Shown in pieces: positions 34,565 through 41,663 of a DNA stretch of 64,000 nucleotides (positions are counted from its first letter, which is position 1; each line of letters begins with the position of its first letter). The DNA lies in assembly GCF_000264455.2 (NCBI RefSeq), contig NC_017956.1, positions 3,206,001 through 3,270,000 on the forward strand. Direction: 5' to 3'. Both the position numbers and the translations under genes were made by a program. The notes under the pieces were generated by a model, which was given only the letters and a program-made list of their open reading frames with translations, made no database searches and had not been told where the DNA came from. This DNA is from Tistrella mobilis KA081020-065. GTDB taxonomy: Bacteria > Pseudomonadota > Alphaproteobacteria > Tistrellales > Tistrellaceae.

Positions 34565-34759
34565 GGGTCTCGCGGCGAAGGCAGGTGCCGGCAGGCGGGC
34601 CGGCATCTCGAACCGCAAATAAGTCGCAAGTGCACCTTGAGCGCAAGCCTGCAACCATGCCCCGCGACGCTTTCGCGCGGACCCGGGTGCGGAAGGCCAC
34701 AATCGTGACGGTCCGGCGGTGACGGGTCTGCCTGCCGGTTCGGGCCCAGCCCCGGCGTT

Positions 34760-34775
34760 TACCATGTTTCAGGTA
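34760..34775 (+). promoter_or_regulatory. TACCAT-N4-CAGGTA site upstream of the response regulator (site 1 of 3)
   Basis: TACCATGTTTCAGGTA matches the two sites upstream of the secreted-protein genes in the left half and the outer GGTA. Its centre is 80 bases from ATG 34848, and about 32 bases upstream of a TAGACT -10-like hexamer (34799), a classical activator position. The conserved TACC...GGTA spacing suits a NarL/FixJ dimer, so autoregulation by the adjacent response regulator is inferred. Confidence 0.55.
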
Positions 34776-34847
34776 GAGCCAGCGCCGCCCCCCCGGCATA
34801 GACTGGCGGTGCCATTTGATCGGCGCATCGCTGTGATCGGGGAGTGA

Positions 34848-35528
34848 ATGACGGAAGAACGCGAGACGCGCCGCATACGCATCGTGCTGACCGAAGACGA
34901 TGCCCCGGTTCGCGACCGGCTGGCCCAGATCATCCGGGGCTGGCCGATGGCGGAACTGGTCGGGGCCTGCGCCACGCTGGCCGAGACCTGCGCCGTGATC
35001 GAGGCCGAGCCGATCAACCTGCTGATCACCGACCTCAAACTGCCCGACGGCAACGGCATCGAGGCGATCCGCCTGCTGTCCCGCCGGCAGCGCGACGCCC
35101 AGGCGATGGTCATCTCGGCACTGGCCGACGAGACCACCGTGCTGGCGGCGATCGAGGCCGGGGCGACCGGCTATCTGCTCAAGGACATGGAGTCGCACGA
35201 TCTCTGCGAGGCCGTGCTGGATGTGATGCTCGGCAGATCCCCCATCTCGTCCAGCATCGCCCGGGTTCTGGTGCGCCGCCTGTCGGATACTGCGCGCCCC
35301 GGCGCGCAGGAGGCAGCGACGGTTCCGGCCCCGACCCTGACGCCGCGGGAGATGGATATCCTCTGGGGGATCGCCAAGGGCTTCACCTATGCCGAACTGG
35401 CCGAGCGGCTGGGCATCTCGCACCAGACCGTGCCCGTGCATGTCCGGAACATCTATCGCAAGCTTCAGGCGTCCAACCGCTCGGAGGCCGTCTATGAGGC
35501 GACCCGCCTGGGGCTGATCCGCCTGTGA
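34848..35528 (+). CDS. NarL/FixJ-family response regulator
   Basis: A 226-residue response regulator. The receiver domain (about 10-125) has the acidic pocket LTEDDAPVRD, the phosphorylatable Asp62 in LLITDLKLPDG, the Ser/Ala switch residue in VISALADE and the Lys in GYLLKDM. The LuxR-type HTH (about 160-222) reads LTPREMDILWGIAKGFTYAELAERLGISHQTVPVHVRNIYRKLQASNRSEAV. Its stop overlaps the GTG start of a histidine kinase, forming a cognate pair. TACCAT...GGTA sites upstream of this gene and of the two secreted-protein genes downstream are its likely targets. It is transcribed divergently from the LysR gene. Confidence 0.92.
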   Translation: MTEERETRRIRIVLTEDDAPVRDRLAQIIRGWPMAELVGACATLAETCAVIEAEPINLLITDLKLPDGNGIEAIRLLSRRQRDAQAMVISALADETTVLAAIEAGATGYLLKDMESHDLCEAVLDVMLGRSPISSSIARVLVRRLSDTARPGAQEAATVPAPTLTPREMDILWGIAKGFTYAELAERLGISHQTVPVHVRNIYRKLQASNRSEAVYEATRLGLIRL

Positions 35529-37357
35529 CCGCGGCGGGCCCGGCAGATCACCGGCACGGCGTTGCGGTCGCTGTGCTGCTGGCGGTCATGATCGCTCTTG
35601 CCGGGCTTCCCTTTCTGGTCGGCCTGCCTTCCCCCAAGGCCGCGCTGGTGCTGGATCGGGCACAGCTGTCGCTGAACGGCGGCCCGGCTCATCCGGTCCG
35701 GCTGCCGCACAGCTGGCAACGCGATCTGCCCGAGCGGACGCAAGCGGTTTATCTGATCGATGTCGTCATCGATGCGGTTCCCGACCGGCCACAGAGCCTG
35801 TTCATCCCGTCGATCCGGCAGAAGCTGGCGGTGCAGTTGAACGGCCGGGTTCTGTATCGCCAGCGGGCGGCATCATGGGCCGATCTGTCGCGCGGCTATT
35901 TCGAGCTGCGGCAGATCCCGCCCGATCTTCTGGTCACCGGCACCAATCATCTGGTACTGACGCTGACCCGCACAGACGGGCTGATCCCGGCCCATCTCTC
36001 CCGGATCTATATCGGTGATGCCGAGGGGATGATCGATCCTCCGTGGCTCAGGCCGCTCATCAATACCGAGCTGCGCAGCATTTCGCTGGCGCTGCATCTG
36101 TTCATCGCGGCAGGGCTGTTCGCGATCTGGGCCGGGCGACCCTCCGATCCGGTGTTTCGCTGGCTGATGGTGCTCAGCGTCAGCAGTCTGGCGATGGCCG
36201 GGATCGAGCTCTGGCCCTTCCCGCGTCTCATCCCGTTCGCGACGTCTCATATCGTGCTGATGCTGCCGGCTTTCGGGCTGATGATGATCGGCCTTGCCCT
36301 GGCGATCACCGGACGCCCCAGACCGCGCTGGCTGGTACCGGCCATCATCCTCGTCCCCGCCCTGCTGCTGACGGTCCGGATCCTCGCCGATGCGCCGATC
36401 GCTCCCACGCAGCTTCTGGGGGCGGGCATCGGCATTGCCGGCCATGCCGTGGCCGGCCTGGTGCTTCTGCATGCTTTCGTCACACAGCGGTTGTGGACAG
36501 GGGGGCTGCTCGGCGTGTCCGCGCTGTTGACCGCCTGGTTCGGCATTCACGACGTTGCCGTGGCCTTCGGCCTGATCCCGGGCGCGTTCCTGCTGTCGAC
36601 CTTCGTGCGGCTGCTGACCTATCTCGCCTTCCTCATCCTGCTGATGTCGCGGCTCGCCACCAGTCTCAACCGGCTCGACCGGGCCAATGACGATCTGCGC
36701 GCCCGGCTGGCGGAGCGCGAAGCCGAGCTGTCGATCCTGCACGAGACGGAGAAACATCTGGTCGGCCAGGCGGTCCGCGAACAGGAACGCCGCCGGCTGA
36801 TGCAGGATCTGCATGACGGGCTGAGCGGCCATCTGGTGTCGATCATCGCCCTCTCCGAGACCGGACAGCGGCGCGACGACATCGAGCGGACCGCGCGCGA
36901 GGCCCTCGACGATCTCAGGCTGGTCATCCACTCGCTCGACCTCGGCGATACCGATCTGCCGCTGGCGCTGGCCGGCTTCCGAGAACGACTGACCCCGCGG
37001 CTTCGGCGGCTGGATGTCCGGCTGGTCTGGTCGATGGAAGCGCTACCCGAAATCCAGGGCGTCACACCAGGCAACGCCCTGTCGATCCTCCGGATCCTGC
37101 AGGAAGCCGTGACGAATGCCCTGAAGCACGGCCCCGCACGGTTGATCGAGATCAGGGGCACCCCCGACCCCGCAGGTGCCGGCGGAAAGATCGTCGTCAC
37201 AGATGACGGCACATCGACCGCGCCCATCGGCAAAGGCTTCGGCCTTGAGAACATGCGACGGCGCGCCAGACAGGTTGGCGGCAGCATCTCCCTGGTCAAG
37301 AACACAAATGGCAATGCGCTGCAATTATGTTTGCCAACTCGGCTTAACGACTGTTAA
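35525..37357 (+). CDS. Seven-helix membrane sensor histidine kinase (7TMR-DISM-like, HisKA_3)
   Basis: A 610-residue kinase. A first helix (about 14-32) leads into a periplasmic jelly-roll-like domain (about 35-180, with WQRDLPERTQAVYLIDVVID and TNHLVLTLTRT), then seven hydrophobic helices (about 190-385), a short coiled coil, the HisKA_3 dimerisation motif with phospho-accepting His430 (LMQDLHDGLSGHLVSII) and an HATPase domain (ILQEAVTNALKHGP, then VTDDGTS, KGFGLENMRRRARQVGG). The layout resembles 7TMR-DISM receptors, in which the periplasmic domain binds an extracellular ligand, often carbohydrate. GTG 35525 overlaps the response-regulator stop. It probably controls the secreted-protein genes that follow. 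Confidence 0.9.
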   Translation: MTAAGPADHRHGVAVAVLLAVMIALAGLPFLVGLPSPKAALVLDRAQLSLNGGPAHPVRLPHSWQRDLPERTQAVYLIDVVIDAVPDRPQSLFIPSIRQKLAVQLNGRVLYRQRAASWADLSRGYFELRQIPPDLLVTGTNHLVLTLTRTDGLIPAHLSRIYIGDAEGMIDPPWLRPLINTELRSISLALHLFIAAGLFAIWAGRPSDPVFRWLMVLSVSSLAMAGIELWPFPRLIPFATSHIVLMLPAFGLMMIGLALAITGRPRPRWLVPAIILVPALLLTVRILADAPIAPTQLLGAGIGIAGHAVAGLVLLHAFVTQRLWTGGLLGVSALLTAWFGIHDVAVAFGLIPGAFLLSTFVRLLTYLAFLILLMSRLATSLNRLDRANDDLRARLAEREAELSILHETEKHLVGQAVREQERRRLMQDLHDGLSGHLVSIIALSETGQRRDDIERTAREALDDLRLVIHSLDLGDTDLPLALAGFRERLTPRLRRLDVRLVWSMEALPEIQGVTPGNALSILRILQEAVTNALKHGPARLIEIRGTPDPAGAGGKIVVTDDGTSTAPIGKGFGLENMRRRARQVGGSISLVKNTNGNALQLCLPTRLNDC

Positions 37358-37401
37358 TTCGCGTAAATACGTATTTATTTTGAGAGATTTTCTGCAAGCT
37401 T

Positions 37402-37419
37402 ATACCATATTGATGGTAT
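37402..37419 (+). promoter_or_regulatory. Palindrome ATACCAT-ATTG-ATGGTAT upstream of secreted protein A (site 2 of 3)
   Basis: Seven-base perfect arms around ATTG; core TACCATATTGATGGTA at 37403-37418, centre 82 bases from ATG 37493. The surrounding 100 bases are AT-rich and also contain the 14-bp palindrome TAAATACGTATTTA (37364-37377). Downstream leader sequence (CTCTACGAGGGTA, 37445-37457) is partly shared with the leader of secreted protein B. Confidence 0.65.
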
Positions 37420-37492
37420 TTTGCTCAGATGTTTCACGTGTCTCTCTACGAGGGTACTTGATCGCCCCTCACATGAAACATGGGAGACAATG

Positions 37493-38641
37493 ATGATGAA
37501 AATACGCAAATGGGCCTGCAGCGTGTCGAGCATCGTCCTGATCCTCAACGGTTCAGCAGCCTTCGCCCAGGACTGTGCCAGCCTGGCAAGCGACGTTGGT
37601 ACGCGGATCGCGGATCTGAAGAAGAAGGCAGATACGGCGCCTGACGACGTCGAGAGCGACTATGCGTCGGCAACGTCGAAGGACTATGCGAACAAGCTCT
37701 TCTCCAGATTTGAGGATCTCAACAAGAAGGCAATACAGGCCTCGCAGCTCATCAACCAAGGATATAATCTTGCCGGTTACACTTCACCATTCAAGGAAGG
37801 GCAGCAGCAGACCAAGATACCACCGGTTGTGACCAATACGATGAGCAATGCTGAAGCCCTCGCTCAGGCCGCGGCGGATGACGACAACACCAAACTCGAC
37901 ATCCTGAGCCTGCGCTGCAGCCAGTCCACCGAACAGACTGCGCTCTCAGCCTATCTTGCCCAGGCTGATGCCGGCACCGTCTCGTCCTACGAGGCTGCCA
38001 AATACAACATCTGCAAGGTCGTTCACATTCTGGCCGATCTCCAGGACAAACGACAGAAGCTGAATGACATCCGCGAGAACGGATATCCACTCTTCTATCT
38101 CCATGAAAAGGAGAAGAAGAGCTATGACGGCCACAGCCGGACAATCCAGCTCAAAGTTGACCTCCGGCTCTACCCCGTATACCCGGAGCATGAGGATCAG
38201 GACATTCTTCTGGGTAAGTTGGAGAAAATTCGCCTGTCCTACAATTCGTACTTTAAGTGGAGCGACAATAACTGGACCAAGCTCAACGTCCTCCAGAAAC
38301 TGGTCGACGACCAGAATGATGAAAAGGAGGTCTGCTGGGGCAGCATCAAGATCACCAGCAGCGTGAAAGCCGACATCTGTTCCCAGGTTTACAACATCAG
38401 CACCGACAGCTTGAAGATCAAAGTCCGGGCGAAATTCAAGTACAGCGGTGACACGCATGCCGTCAGCCTCGGTACGGTCACTGTCCCGGCGCCGTTCGGA
38501 TATCTGTCGGATCTGTCGGACATGAAGGAGAAGAAAATGCAGGATCTGCAGGCGAAGGTCGTCGATCGCATTGCATCCCTGTTCGGAGCCTATGGTGACG
38601 TGATCGAGAAAGCCCAGAGCTGGCAGAAATCCTGCTCGTGA
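37493..38641 (+). CDS. Secreted six-cysteine protein of unknown family, paralogue A
   Basis: A 382-residue exported protein; no family is recognised. The signal peptide (KIRKWACSVSSIVLILNGSAAFA) is cut near residue 25, leaving QDC. The N-terminal half is helical and Lys/Ala-rich (IADLKKKAD, FSRFEDLNKKAIQASQLINQGYNLAGY, then SLRCSQSTEQTALSAYLAQADAG and KVVHILADLQDKRQKLNDIRENGYPLF). The C-terminal half is predicted beta-rich (TIQLKVDLRLYPVYP, RLSYNSYFKWSDNNW) and ends with the helix DMKEKKMQDLQAKVV. Mature cysteines are 28, 142, 174, 281, 296 and 381, conserved in paralogue B, suggesting three disulfides. Three consecutive ATGs (37490, 37493, 37496) are possible; 37493 is best spaced from GGGAG. 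Lower GC than neighbours. Confidence 0.8.
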   Translation: MMKIRKWACSVSSIVLILNGSAAFAQDCASLASDVGTRIADLKKKADTAPDDVESDYASATSKDYANKLFSRFEDLNKKAIQASQLINQGYNLAGYTSPFKEGQQQTKIPPVVTNTMSNAEALAQAAADDDNTKLDILSLRCSQSTEQTALSAYLAQADAGTVSSYEAAKYNICKVVHILADLQDKRQKLNDIRENGYPLFYLHEKEKKSYDGHSRTIQLKVDLRLYPVYPEHEDQDILLGKLEKIRLSYNSYFKWSDNNWTKLNVLQKLVDDQNDEKEVCWGSIKITSSVKADICSQVYNISTDSLKIKVRAKFKYSGDTHAVSLGTVTVPAPFGYLSDLSDMKEKKMQDLQAKVVDRIASLFGAYGDVIEKAQSWQKSCS

Positions 38642-38657
38642 TCCTCACCACATTCAG

Positions 38658-38688
38658 GGGGCACGGATGCTGGATGCCGCCGTGCCCC
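38658..38688 (+). terminator. Terminator-like hairpin after secreted protein A
   Basis: GGGGCACGG (38658-38666) pairs perfectly with CCGTGCCCC (38680-38688) around a 13-base loop, 17 bases after the stop codon. No U tract follows, so it may be a weak terminator or an mRNA 3'-end stabiliser. Confidence 0.45.
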
Positions 38689-38733
38689 AGCCACATTTCC
38701 ATGAGAGCCCGGGTTCATGGCGGTCCCAGCTCG

Positions 38734-38767
38734 TGAGAAATTCCGGGCCCATGAGAAATTCCGGGCC
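38734..38767. repeat. Two copies of a 16-bp direct repeat in the gap between the secreted-protein genes
   Basis: TGAGAAATTCCGGGCC occurs at 38734-38749 and 38752-38767, an 18-base period. It lies in the 311-base gap between paralogues A and B. Apart from this repeat, the 3' hairpin and operator site 3, the gap shows no coding sequence. Confidence 0.7.
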
Positions 38768-38868
38768 GGAGACCAGGCCGCAGTGACCTGCCACTGCAAA
38801 GGTCCGGTTCGACGACTGCCAGCATTCATGACCATCGTCCGGGATCCGGGCCGGAGATTCGCTCCGGG

Positions 38869-38884
38869 TACCATGTTGATGGTA
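38869..38884 (+). promoter_or_regulatory. Palindrome TACCAT-GTTG-ATGGTA upstream of secreted protein B (site 3 of 3)
   Basis: Perfect six-base arms; differs from site 2 by one base in the spacer and shares the following TATT. Its centre is 76 bases from ATG 38953. The leader after it (GTGTGCCCCTCTAGGAGGTA) parallels that of paralogue A. Its presence shows that gene B has its own promoter rather than relying on read-through from A. Confidence 0.65.
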
Positions 38885-38952
38885 TTCCGCTACCGGCGAT
38901 CGTGTGCCCCTCTAGGAGGTATCGCGCGTCCCTCGGATGAGACAGAAAGATA

Positions 38953-40122
38953 ATGAAAAAGCAGATGCATAACTGGGCATGCAGCATTGCGGCCCTTGCC
39001 GTCATCCTCAATGTTTCAACTGCCGCTGCCCAGGACTGTCTCGGCCTGGCGGGCGATGTCGGCGCGAGAATCACCGACCTGAAAAAGAAGGCCGATGCTG
39101 CACCGGGAGACGTCCAGAACGACTATGCCTCGGCGACCTCTAAGGACTACGCAAAGAGCTTCTTCACAGCGTTCGATGACCTCAACAAAAAGGCCAATGA
39201 GGCATCTCAACTTGTCGGTCAGGGCTACAAGCTGGCGGGCTACACGGCGGTCTTCCAGGAAGGCCAGATCCAGACAAAGATGCCACCAGTCGTGACCAAC
39301 ACCATGAGCAATGCCGAAGCCCTCGCCCAGGTGGCGGCCGATGGTGACAAGACGAAACTGGACATCCTGAGCCTGCGCTGCAGCCAGTCGACTGAACAGA
39401 CTGCGCTCGCCACCTATCTCGCCCAGGCGGATGCAGGAACCGTCTCCGCCTACAAGACCGCAAAATACGAAGCCTGCAAGGTCATCCACATCCTGGCCGA
39501 CCTTCAGGACAAGCGGCAGAAGCTGAACGATATCCGTGAAAACGGATATCCGCTGTTTTTTCTCCATGCCAAGGACAAGAAGAAATTTGCCGGCCACAGC
39601 CGGACTATCCAGCTGAAGGTCGACCTGCGGATGTTTCCAATCTACCCCGACAAGACAATGAAGGTGGATGGAAAAGACCAACCCGTCCTCCTTGGACAGA
39701 TCCAGGGAATCGACTTGTCGTATAATAGCTATTTCAAGTGGAGTGATGATAACTGGACTACACTCAACCTGTATCAGTATATTATTTCGGATACGCGGAA
39801 GGATGACTACACCTGCGCCCCCTATTTCCACATGACCAGCCACGTGGAGGCGACGCTCTGCGTCAAGGTCGAAGCGGCGAGTGCCGATAAACTCAAGGTC
39901 GGGGCGAAGGCCAAATTCAAATACAAAGGCGACACGAAAGAGGTCGGTTTCGGTACCCAGACCATCCCGGCGCCCTTTGGTTATCTCGCCGATCTCTCCG
40001 ACATGAAGGAAAAGAAGATGCAGGACCTCCAGTCAAAGGTCGTGCATCGCGTCGCCTCGCTCTTTGACGCCTATGATGCGGTGTCGGAGAAGGCCGAAGC
40101 CTGGCAGAAGTCCTGCAAATGA
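38953..40122 (+). CDS. Secreted six-cysteine protein of unknown family, paralogue B
   Basis: A 389-residue exported protein clearly homologous to paralogue A over its whole length, especially in the N-terminal half (PPVVTNTMSNAEALAQ, LDILSLRCSQSTEQTAL, HILADLQDKRQKLNDIRENGYPLF) and near the C-terminus (APFGYLADLSDMKEKKMQDLQ). The signal peptide (MKKQMHNWACSIAALAVILNVSTAAA) is cut near residue 26, again leaving QDC. All six mature cysteines of A are conserved; the segment between the fourth and fifth cysteines and the PDKTMKVDGKDQ insertion are the most diverged parts. The stop codon overlaps the start of the secretin-like lipoprotein gene (ATGA), implying a shared pathway. No known domain. 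Confidence 0.82.
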   Translation: MKKQMHNWACSIAALAVILNVSTAAAQDCLGLAGDVGARITDLKKKADAAPGDVQNDYASATSKDYAKSFFTAFDDLNKKANEASQLVGQGYKLAGYTAVFQEGQIQTKMPPVVTNTMSNAEALAQVAADGDKTKLDILSLRCSQSTEQTALATYLAQADAGTVSAYKTAKYEACKVIHILADLQDKRQKLNDIRENGYPLFFLHAKDKKKFAGHSRTIQLKVDLRMFPIYPDKTMKVDGKDQPVLLGQIQGIDLSYNSYFKWSDDNWTTLNLYQYIISDTRKDDYTCAPYFHMTSHVEATLCVKVEAASADKLKVGAKAKFKYKGDTKEVGFGTQTIPAPFGYLADLSDMKEKKMQDLQSKVVHRVASLFDAYDAVSEKAEAWQKSCK

Positions 40123-41663
40123 ACCTGGTGCCGTCTCCTGCGGCCCCGACGTCCCCCCGGCGCCCACACGGTTTTTTCAGGCCGCCCGAACGCCGGGCCA
40201 TTCCGGGCCGGCGCATCCGGGCGGCCGCAGCCGCCAGCGCCTGTATCATCCTGTCGGCCTGCTTCGGCGGCACACCACACTTCGCCGAACCCATGGCTCC
40301 GATCCATGAACTCGGGCATGACTGGCGCAAGCACTTCAGCTACGGGCTGGATCTGCTCGACCAGGACACCCCGCTCAACAACCGGGCAGTCTTCACGCGT
40401 GCCGCTTTCGCCAGTGCCGCACGTTTTGCCCGTGACCATGCCCCTTCCTATGTCGGGCTCGGCCTCGCCGAGAGCATGCTCGGCAATCAGGGAGAGGCTG
40501 AGGTCGCCTTTCTAAATGCCGCATTGATCGAGGATCGTAGCCTGTACTGGGCACTCGCGACCATTGCAGCCCTGCGCAACGGTGACGAGGCTGTCGCACG
40601 CACCCTCTTCGATGCGATGCAATCCGCGAAAATCCAGAGTGACGACCCGGCGAGCCGCTTCGTGCGAGAGGTCTATCTGGCAGAAAACCCTCCGTCAGAG
40701 GCCGCCATAACCAGGATCCCCTATCAGGCCAGGATTGAAGGCCTGGACGATGATCTCATCTGCAACGATACATCTGATGACGACGTGTGCCGCGACCTGA
40801 ACATCGTCGCCAATCTTTACTTCGTCCGCCGGACGTCGTCCGAAACGATGGCCCGAGGCACCGACTTCTTCAACGAACTCACGGTTCAGCTCGGCGCAGA
40901 ACGAACCCAGAGCTGGGAGAAAAACTCCGGTCAGGACTGGCAAATGAGCATCCTGAACGAAGTCACGCTCTCAATCCCCGAGATTCAGTATGCGGTCCGC
41001 ATCACCCCCCAGGCCAGCAACAGCAAGGTCTATGTCGACGCGGCACCCTCGGTGGTAACGTCCATCGGAAATACCTCGGAGATCCATGAAGGGGCCAATC
41101 TGACGATCCTCTACAACTCGACCGGCGATGCCGAGGAGTACACGGCCGAGACAGGGCTGACGCTCCATATAGAACCGGATCGGGCGACACCCAGATATGC
41201 CAGTCTGCAATTGCAGTTCGAGTTCAGCTCGATCGCAACCTTCGAACCATCAGCCCTGGCACAGGTCCTGAACGTGTCGAAGAACACCTATCAAATCACC
41301 GGCTATTTCCCCTATGGCCGGCCAGTGGTTCTCGGCACGATTGCCAACACCACGAAACAACACACCAATAGCGGTCAGACTGTCCTCGACCGCATTCCTC
41401 TGGTCGGCGGTGCTTTTGGGCAGTCGGACACACAGCTTGCGACATCAGACACACTGATCCTCGCCCGATTGTCTGTCCCATCTGCCTTCCATGGCTCGCA
41501 CGAGCAACGGGTACTTGATGCGATGCGGGGCATGGGTGTCGAGGTGATGGGATATGACATGATCGAACGTCGCAGGATTGTCCATCTGGCACCGGACCTT
41601 CTCGACTTCCTGCCAGCCTTCCTCAAAACCGGTGCCCTTTCGGGCACCGGTTTTGAGGGCTGA
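40119..41663 (+). CDS. TPR-containing lipoprotein with a C-terminal secretin-like domain
   Basis: A 514-residue predicted outer-membrane lipoprotein. A basic stretch precedes a hydrophobic segment and lipobox (IILSAC, Cys about residue 48). Residues about 65-200 read as TPR-like helical repeats (AVFTRAAFASAARFARDHAPSYVGLGLAESMLGNQGEAEVAFLNAALIEDRSLYWALATIAALR). From about 270 the pattern follows the secretin barrel: an AAPSVVTSIGNTSEIHEG strand pair, TGLTLHIEPDRATPRYASLQLQFEF, then YGRPVVLGTIANTTKQHTNSGQTVLDRIPLVGGAFG (about 398-433) and SDTLILARLSVP. This mirrors GETVVLGG...VPLLGDIPLLGxLF of GspD/PilQ. Lipidated secretins exist (BfpB-type). ATG overlaps the paralogue B stop. The last 14 codons run into a terminator hairpin. 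The assignment rests on motif reading only. Confidence 0.62.
   Translation: MNLVPSPAAPTSPRRPHGFFRPPERRAIPGRRIRAAAAASACIILSACFGGTPHFAEPMAPIHELGHDWRKHFSYGLDLLDQDTPLNNRAVFTRAAFASAARFARDHAPSYVGLGLAESMLGNQGEAEVAFLNAALIEDRSLYWALATIAALRNGDEAVARTLFDAMQSAKIQSDDPASRFVREVYLAENPPSEAAITRIPYQARIEGLDDDLICNDTSDDDVCRDLNIVANLYFVRRTSSETMARGTDFFNELTVQLGAERTQSWEKNSGQDWQMSILNEVTLSIPEIQYAVRITPQASNSKVYVDAAPSVVTSIGNTSEIHEGANLTILYNSTGDAEEYTAETGLTLHIEPDRATPRYASLQLQFEFSSIATFEPSALAQVLNVSKNTYQITGYFPYGRPVVLGTIANTTKQHTNSGQTVLDRIPLVGGAFGQSDTQLATSDTLILARLSVPSAFHGSHEQRVLDAMRGMGVEVMGYDMIERRRIVHLAPDLLDFLPAFLKTGALSGTGFEG
41621..41658. terminator. Bidirectional rho-independent terminator inside the last codons of the secretin-like gene
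   Basis: A perfect 17-bp stem (CCTCAAAACCGGTGCCC at 41621-41637 with its complement at 41642-41658) and TTTC loop. The core CCGGTGCCC/GGGCACCGG is flanked by AAAA and TTTT, so it can terminate both the plus-strand operon and the convergent alcohol dehydrogenase gene. It overlaps coding sequence up to five bases before the stop. Confidence 0.85.

Follow-up and report, generated by a model that had tools for sequence, protein, structure and literature searches.

Introduction

Secretins are known as the gates of large machines. The described systems closest to the locus reported here are the Tad system, in which a tetratricopeptide-repeat (TPR) lipoprotein pilotin and a secretin form the TadD-RcpA pair (PMC10499894), and, on the regulatory side, two-component systems of the NarX/NarL type, whose regulator NarL binds 7-2-7 type sites (PMC7419079). 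Here we describe five plus-strand genes at 34848-41663 of a 64,000-nucleotide stretch of the Tistrella mobilis KA081020-065 genome (NC_017956.1, positions 3,206,001 to 3,270,000; hereafter the window). They encode a response regulator (RR), a sensor histidine kinase (HK), two exported six-cysteine proteins (S-A and S-B, collectively S) and a lipoprotein that joins TPR-like repeats to a secretin barrel (TPR-secretin). Together they appear to make up a so far undescribed system, under signal control, for export or for the cell surface.

The module resembles RcpA-TadD in combining a lipid-anchored TPR part with a secretin barrel, predicted to lie at the outer membrane. In contrast to that pair, the two parts are fused in one polypeptide, the VirB9-like N-domain of RcpA was not detected in the lipoprotein, and the block contains no ATPase, platform or pilin of the Tad/Flp system. 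With GspD and PilQ it shares the PF00263 barrel, and its profile aligns with solved GspD chains, but only over the barrel (residues 285-443, about 160 residues); it reaches 23.2 bits against an NCBIfam cut-off of 351 for GspD, and no N0-N3 domain was matched in the lipoprotein with Pfam. The ATPase, platform and pseudopilins that accompany the secretin of a type II secretion system (T2SS) are absent from the block, as are other T2SS or type IV pilus genes. The barrel region also gave a weak PHROG match to the pIV secretin of filamentous phages (E 4e-4), but the module has a TPR lipoprotein and no phage genes, and neither phage records nor viral contigs yielded a match to S; a phage origin was rejected, the pIV match being the sole phage-type signal. 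Finally, the HisKA_3-type kinase, the NarL-type regulator and a 7-2-7 candidate operator recall NarX/NarL, whereas the periplasmic domain and about seven transmembrane helices of the kinase are like those of 7TMR-DISM sensors, and the candidate regulon consists of S and the secretin.

Results

A self-contained and recurring five-gene module

A prior interpretation of the window made from its letters (the sequence-only reading) had proposed that the five genes form a coherent block, and this was borne out: they make one recurring module, linked to a two-component pair. The features are listed in Table 1. In a sister species the site is empty, and exactly so, window positions 34708 and 41625 mapping to the same base (blastn); the five genes are therefore the entire insertion, and the block holds none of the ATPase, pilin or inner-membrane platform genes whose absence had been noted. 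The S genes have a G+C content of 54-55%, versus 69% for the window, which, together with the patchy distribution of the module, favours a gain over a loss in the sister species. We conclude that the module was probably acquired horizontally, as a self-contained unit.

Table 1 Features of the module and its boundaries (window coordinates).
Feature	Position	Strand	Basis
Whole inserted block	34709..41624	none	flanks 34708 and 41625 adjacent in sister species; blastn against L085 (= G001:C4)
Degenerate palindrome copy TACCATGTTTCAGGTA	34760..34775	none	72 nt before RR start
NarL/FixJ-type response regulator (RR)	34848..35528	+	Pfam Response_reg 1.3e-18, GerE 2.8e-17; alignment
Sensor histidine kinase (HK)	35525..37357	+	periplasmic domain, about seven transmembrane segments, HisKA_3/HATPase_c; Pfam, hydropathy, alignment
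7-2-7 palindrome TACCATATTGATGGTA before S-A	37403..37418	none	exact; site also kept ahead of S in relatives
S-A, exported six-cysteine protein, probable recombinant	37493..38641	+	no Pfam/NCBIfam family; mosaic analysis
7-2-7 palindrome TACCATGTTGATGGTA before S-B	38869..38884	none	exact
S-B, exported six-cysteine protein	38953..40122	+	the S common to the same-species genome, 81%
TPR-secretin lipoprotein	40119..41663	+	lipobox LSAC (C48); TPR-like 60-190; secretin barrel about 290-450
Terminator hairpin of convergent dehydrogenase gene, not part of the module	41621..41658	none	in empty site too

Relatives came from one scan of 84,980 species genomes, which yielded nine loci: three in Parvibaculum and close kin, one each in Oricola, Alishewanella, Aliidiomarina and Sphingopyxis, and two in Luteimonas; the starts of several homologues were picked by alignment. 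RR, HK, S and TPR-secretin are co-located in Parvibaculum, Oricola, Sphingopyxis and Aliidiomarina, and only Alishewanella and Luteimonas depart from this among the relatives. In Luteimonas, S lies apart from a secretin-RR-HK cluster in which RR and HK, of the same families, adjoin the TPR-secretin. Alishewanella retains S and the secretin without the kinase, and against the kinase profile its genome gives a match in the catalytic part alone. Altogether, the four families occur together at seven loci beyond the window, five of them clearly distinct once the three Parvibaculum-type loci are grouped. These counts carry a bias, since the same loci went into the profiles; it is smallest for Luteimonas, detected with a profile that left its sequences out, and for G627, a genome with a distant S relative. 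Other than these four, the groups had in common only shadow reading frames and widespread enzyme types such as dehydrogenases and ABC transporters.

Homologues were thus not found mostly singly or in unrelated contexts. The four families recur together, but their order and orientation vary and the relatives have one S, as does the same-species genome (G059), in which the module is present. The module is rare, since, among 387 genomes drawn evenly from the class, S turned up only in the strain's own species, and among 397 from the phylum a convincing S match came only from its own genome and from G627, a distant relative.

The regulatory half and its candidate operator

The RR has the receiver domain with a phospho-acceptor Asp (D62) and the GerE helix-turn-helix by which NarL/FixJ regulators are defined, and D62 and K112 are invariant in 8 aligned homologues. 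In the HK, H430 and N531 are invariant, HATPase_c is matched at 1.1e-7 and HisKA_3 below threshold, and hydropathy shows one N-terminal segment followed by about seven further hydrophobic segments. The window HK has no match to 7TMR-DISM_7TM, and two relatives match it below the cut-off (7.9e-5 and 6.8e-4). A response regulator with a seven-helix, periplasmic-sensing kinase, as originally suggested, is thus supported by Pfam, hydropathy and alignment. The reading frames of RR and HK overlap at GTGA and those of S-B and the lipoprotein at ATGA, both as noted at the outset.

The palindrome TACCATNNTGATGGTA occurs exactly at 37403 and 38869. Three copies had been claimed; those before S-A and S-B are exact, while the third, before the RR, is degenerate, with 3 mismatches to TACCATNNTGATGGTA and 2 to TACCATN4ATGGTA, and has an identical sequence in the same-species genome. 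The window holds seven matches at <=3 mismatches, a count that includes both strands of the two palindromes, versus 0.87 expected, and 0/100 shuffles reached 7. As the motif was taken from the window, the test is fair only for other loci. There, in 7/8 loci, the best match to TACCATN4ATGGTA no more than 150 nt from S shows 0-3 mismatches and always stands 62-93 nt upstream of the S start as used, and among 200 shuffles per stretch 0-5% were equally good. The palindrome also precedes the unlinked S of Luteimonas, and where the secretin has an upstream region to itself (Sphingopyxis, Oricola and Luteimonas sp. 8-5) it stands there too. It is absent upstream of S in Alishewanella (6 mismatches), a genome that also lacks the kinase and so offers an internal control, kinase and operator being missing together. 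Conservation of the site thus seems to extend over two classes of Proteobacteria and to hold even with S unlinked, making it a candidate operator for the RR. Taken together, the regulatory half of the module, as predicted here, is well supported by sequence conservation, and the conserved candidate operator makes its regulon directly testable.

The exported proteins define a family without a recognised domain

S-A and S-B are 67% identical, and neither matched a Pfam or NCBIfam family. The N-terminus of S is signal-peptide-like, and its six cysteines (29, 143, 175, 288, 303 and 388 in S-B numbering) are all invariant in 11 sequences, in line with the six-cysteine description made at the outset. 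In the predicted model (pLDDT 67), seven strands at 199-339 lie between long helices at the two ends. S had no sequence match among solved structures, and this model, of moderate quality, gave no Foldseek match at E<=0.001 and a best VIA Z of 4.7. The Pfam and NCBIfam searches agree with the view that these exported proteins have no recognised domain, and S defines a protein family of that kind.

The two proteins had been described as paired. Two S genes are indeed present here, but relatives, including the same-species genome, have one; as far as the compared sequences tell, the two-S arrangement is specific to this strain. The beta region is the most divergent part between the two. The C half of S-A groups with Parvibaculum, and forcing it with S-B instead gave p 0.056, whereas for the N half grouping with Parvibaculum is rejected (p 0.0018). 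Because the halves group differently, S-A is probably a mosaic, its N half like that of S-B and its C half like that of the Parvibaculum protein, an origin more likely than simple tandem duplication.

Distant relatives of the C-terminal part of S were found in G627 and in a second genome (G841), where the relative lies ~5 kb from the gene for a 1029-aa secretin. The G841 relative is without the counterparts of both C29 and C388, which would fit a disulfide between these two that ties the ends of S together. In the locus L037:132-9024, a HAMP/MFS fusion protein accompanies a distant S-like protein and a 1029-aa secretin.

A lipoprotein with TPR-like repeats and a secretin barrel

The lipoprotein matches the Pfam Secretin family (PF00263) over residues 300-448 (4.8e-12; 46.2 bits versus a cut-off of 27.5), and its lipobox cysteine is invariant in nine TPR-secretin sequences. 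Pfam TPR is above cut-off in wider relatives and not in the window lipoprotein itself, whose TPR part matches solved TPR proteins by profile over about 70-170 and is modelled as helix pairs at 69-168 (block pLDDT about 64-91). The layout proposed by the sequence-only reading, TPR-like repeats followed by a secretin-like C-terminal domain, is consistent with all of these.

Lipoproteins with this layout form a wider set in other genomes, score 68-114 bits for PF00263 and adjoin other exported proteins, with tectonin/ricin-lectin or pentapeptide repeats or of 212 aa with cysteines. In two alphaproteobacterial genomes (L068:5620-12822 and L069:6357-13351) the TPR-secretin is flanked by a cysteine-rich exported protein and a tectonin-repeat protein, the cysteine-rich protein carrying tectonin in L068 and ricin-lectin in L069. 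Three others (L072:8320-12182, L073:6574-10415 and L070:1512-5076) adjoin pentapeptide-repeat proteins, two also with a solute-binding domain. A second TPR-secretin in a Parvibaculum-type genome (L035:9290-11697) adjoins a 212-aa cysteine-containing exported protein, which has no Pfam match and did not match the S profile. From neighbourhood alone, these loci support a secretin with a dedicated exported partner as a putative recurring theme. The architecture was absent from the open-access literature searched, which also gave nothing relevant on secretins with tectonin, standalone secretins or Tistrella secretion.

In Parvibaculum indicum, the TPR-secretin gene is split by about 0.9 kb resembling an IS5-type transposase gene (L006:11807-12730), with an apparent 8-bp target duplication; the gene is intact in a close relative (L007).

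Proposed mechanism and alternatives

We lean towards a reading in which a signal induces synthesis of S along with an outer-membrane secretin that pilots itself and either exports S or joins it in a channel complex. The 7TMR-type kinase would sense a periplasmic signal and phosphorylate the NarL-type RR, a dimer of which would bind the 7-2-7 inverted repeat that lies about 60-90 nt ahead of S, and would switch on S, the secretin and probably the RR itself. S, with its signal-peptide-like N-terminus, would be exported by Sec and its six cysteines oxidised to three disulfides. The lipoprotein would be sorted to the outer membrane and assemble as a secretin, its fused TPR part standing in for a TPR pilotin of the TadD or PilF kind. 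Lastly, and least certainly, S would leave through the secretin or be displayed by it, without a dedicated ATPase; we put this step at about even chances, against a distinctly smaller chance for S as a fixed structural partner.

The transport half is what we infer, and several observations weigh against it. The block encodes no energy source, and a T2SSE ATPase from a separate secretin locus of the host could play a part. S is located away from the secretin in Luteimonas, occurs with the secretin but no kinase in Alishewanella, and has a distant relative with no secretin beside it in G627. The monomer model of the secretin is of poor quality, and both the export of S and a secretin pore are predictions from the genes. 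Three readings of the link between S and the secretin remain: cargo, structural partner, and use by another machine.

As a structural partner, S would form a fixed trans-periplasmic complex with the TPR-secretin and replace the N0-N3 domains as a plug, ring or extension, while a small molecule or polymer passes in or out under sensor control. This possibility, which we hold tentatively, would fit the close coupling of S and secretin, with overlapping genes at several loci, a secretin without matched N-domains, and a model of S with long helices and a beta domain. It fits less well with the unlinked S of Luteimonas, or with related TPR-secretins whose exported partners are unrelated, several with lectin-type domains typical of surface proteins.

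The secretin might instead provide an extra outer-membrane gate for a host type II or type IV pilus-like machine, with S as its substrate. The genome of this strain does have a separate small locus of that kind, with a T2SSE ATPase, a T2SSF platform protein, a prepilin and a secretin (L074:8801-17052; contig C1, about 2114300-2122550). We consider this improbable: that locus already has its own secretin, a Parvibaculum-type genome with the full module (G756) has T2SSE matches that are all weaker (best E 1.3e-64) and resemble Tad or type IV secretion genes, a type assignment that is itself inferred, and N-domains, the docking route of such machines, were not detectable in the TPR-secretin. Very improbable is an envelope-stress regulon that responds to a misassembled secretin or to envelope damage, with S acting in the periplasm as a chaperone or in quality control: mislocalised secretins are a known envelope stress and the kinase is of the periplasmic-sensing kind, but the same RR inducing a secretin would feed the stress, and S has no recognised protease or chaperone domain (Pfam, NCBIfam).

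If S is instead exported or displayed by the secretin, the module could conceivably, though we would wager less on this, be a minimal secretion system not described before, in which a single TPR-secretin lipoprotein, acting as its own pilotin, would export on demand a single dedicated protein stabilised by disulfides, without ATPase or inner-membrane machine, the same secretin type being paired elsewhere with lectin-like and other exported partners. Such a compact, mobile, sensor-controlled cassette of secretin and partner would show the minimum needed to pass a folded protein through the outer membrane, or else bring to light a novel surface structure.

Other assignments and the downstream boundary

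A defence system (no PADLOC match) and plasmid carriage (no match) were rejected, as was identity with EmbRS of Rubrivivax, a different locus with a PEP-CTERM two-component system. The bidirectional terminator thought to close the block is a real hairpin, with a 17-bp perfect stem (41621-41637/41642-41658, z -5.6), and the last secretin codons lie inside it. It belongs to the neighbour, however: because it is also present in the empty site of the sister species, we assign it to the neighbouring dehydrogenase gene as a terminator older than the insertion.

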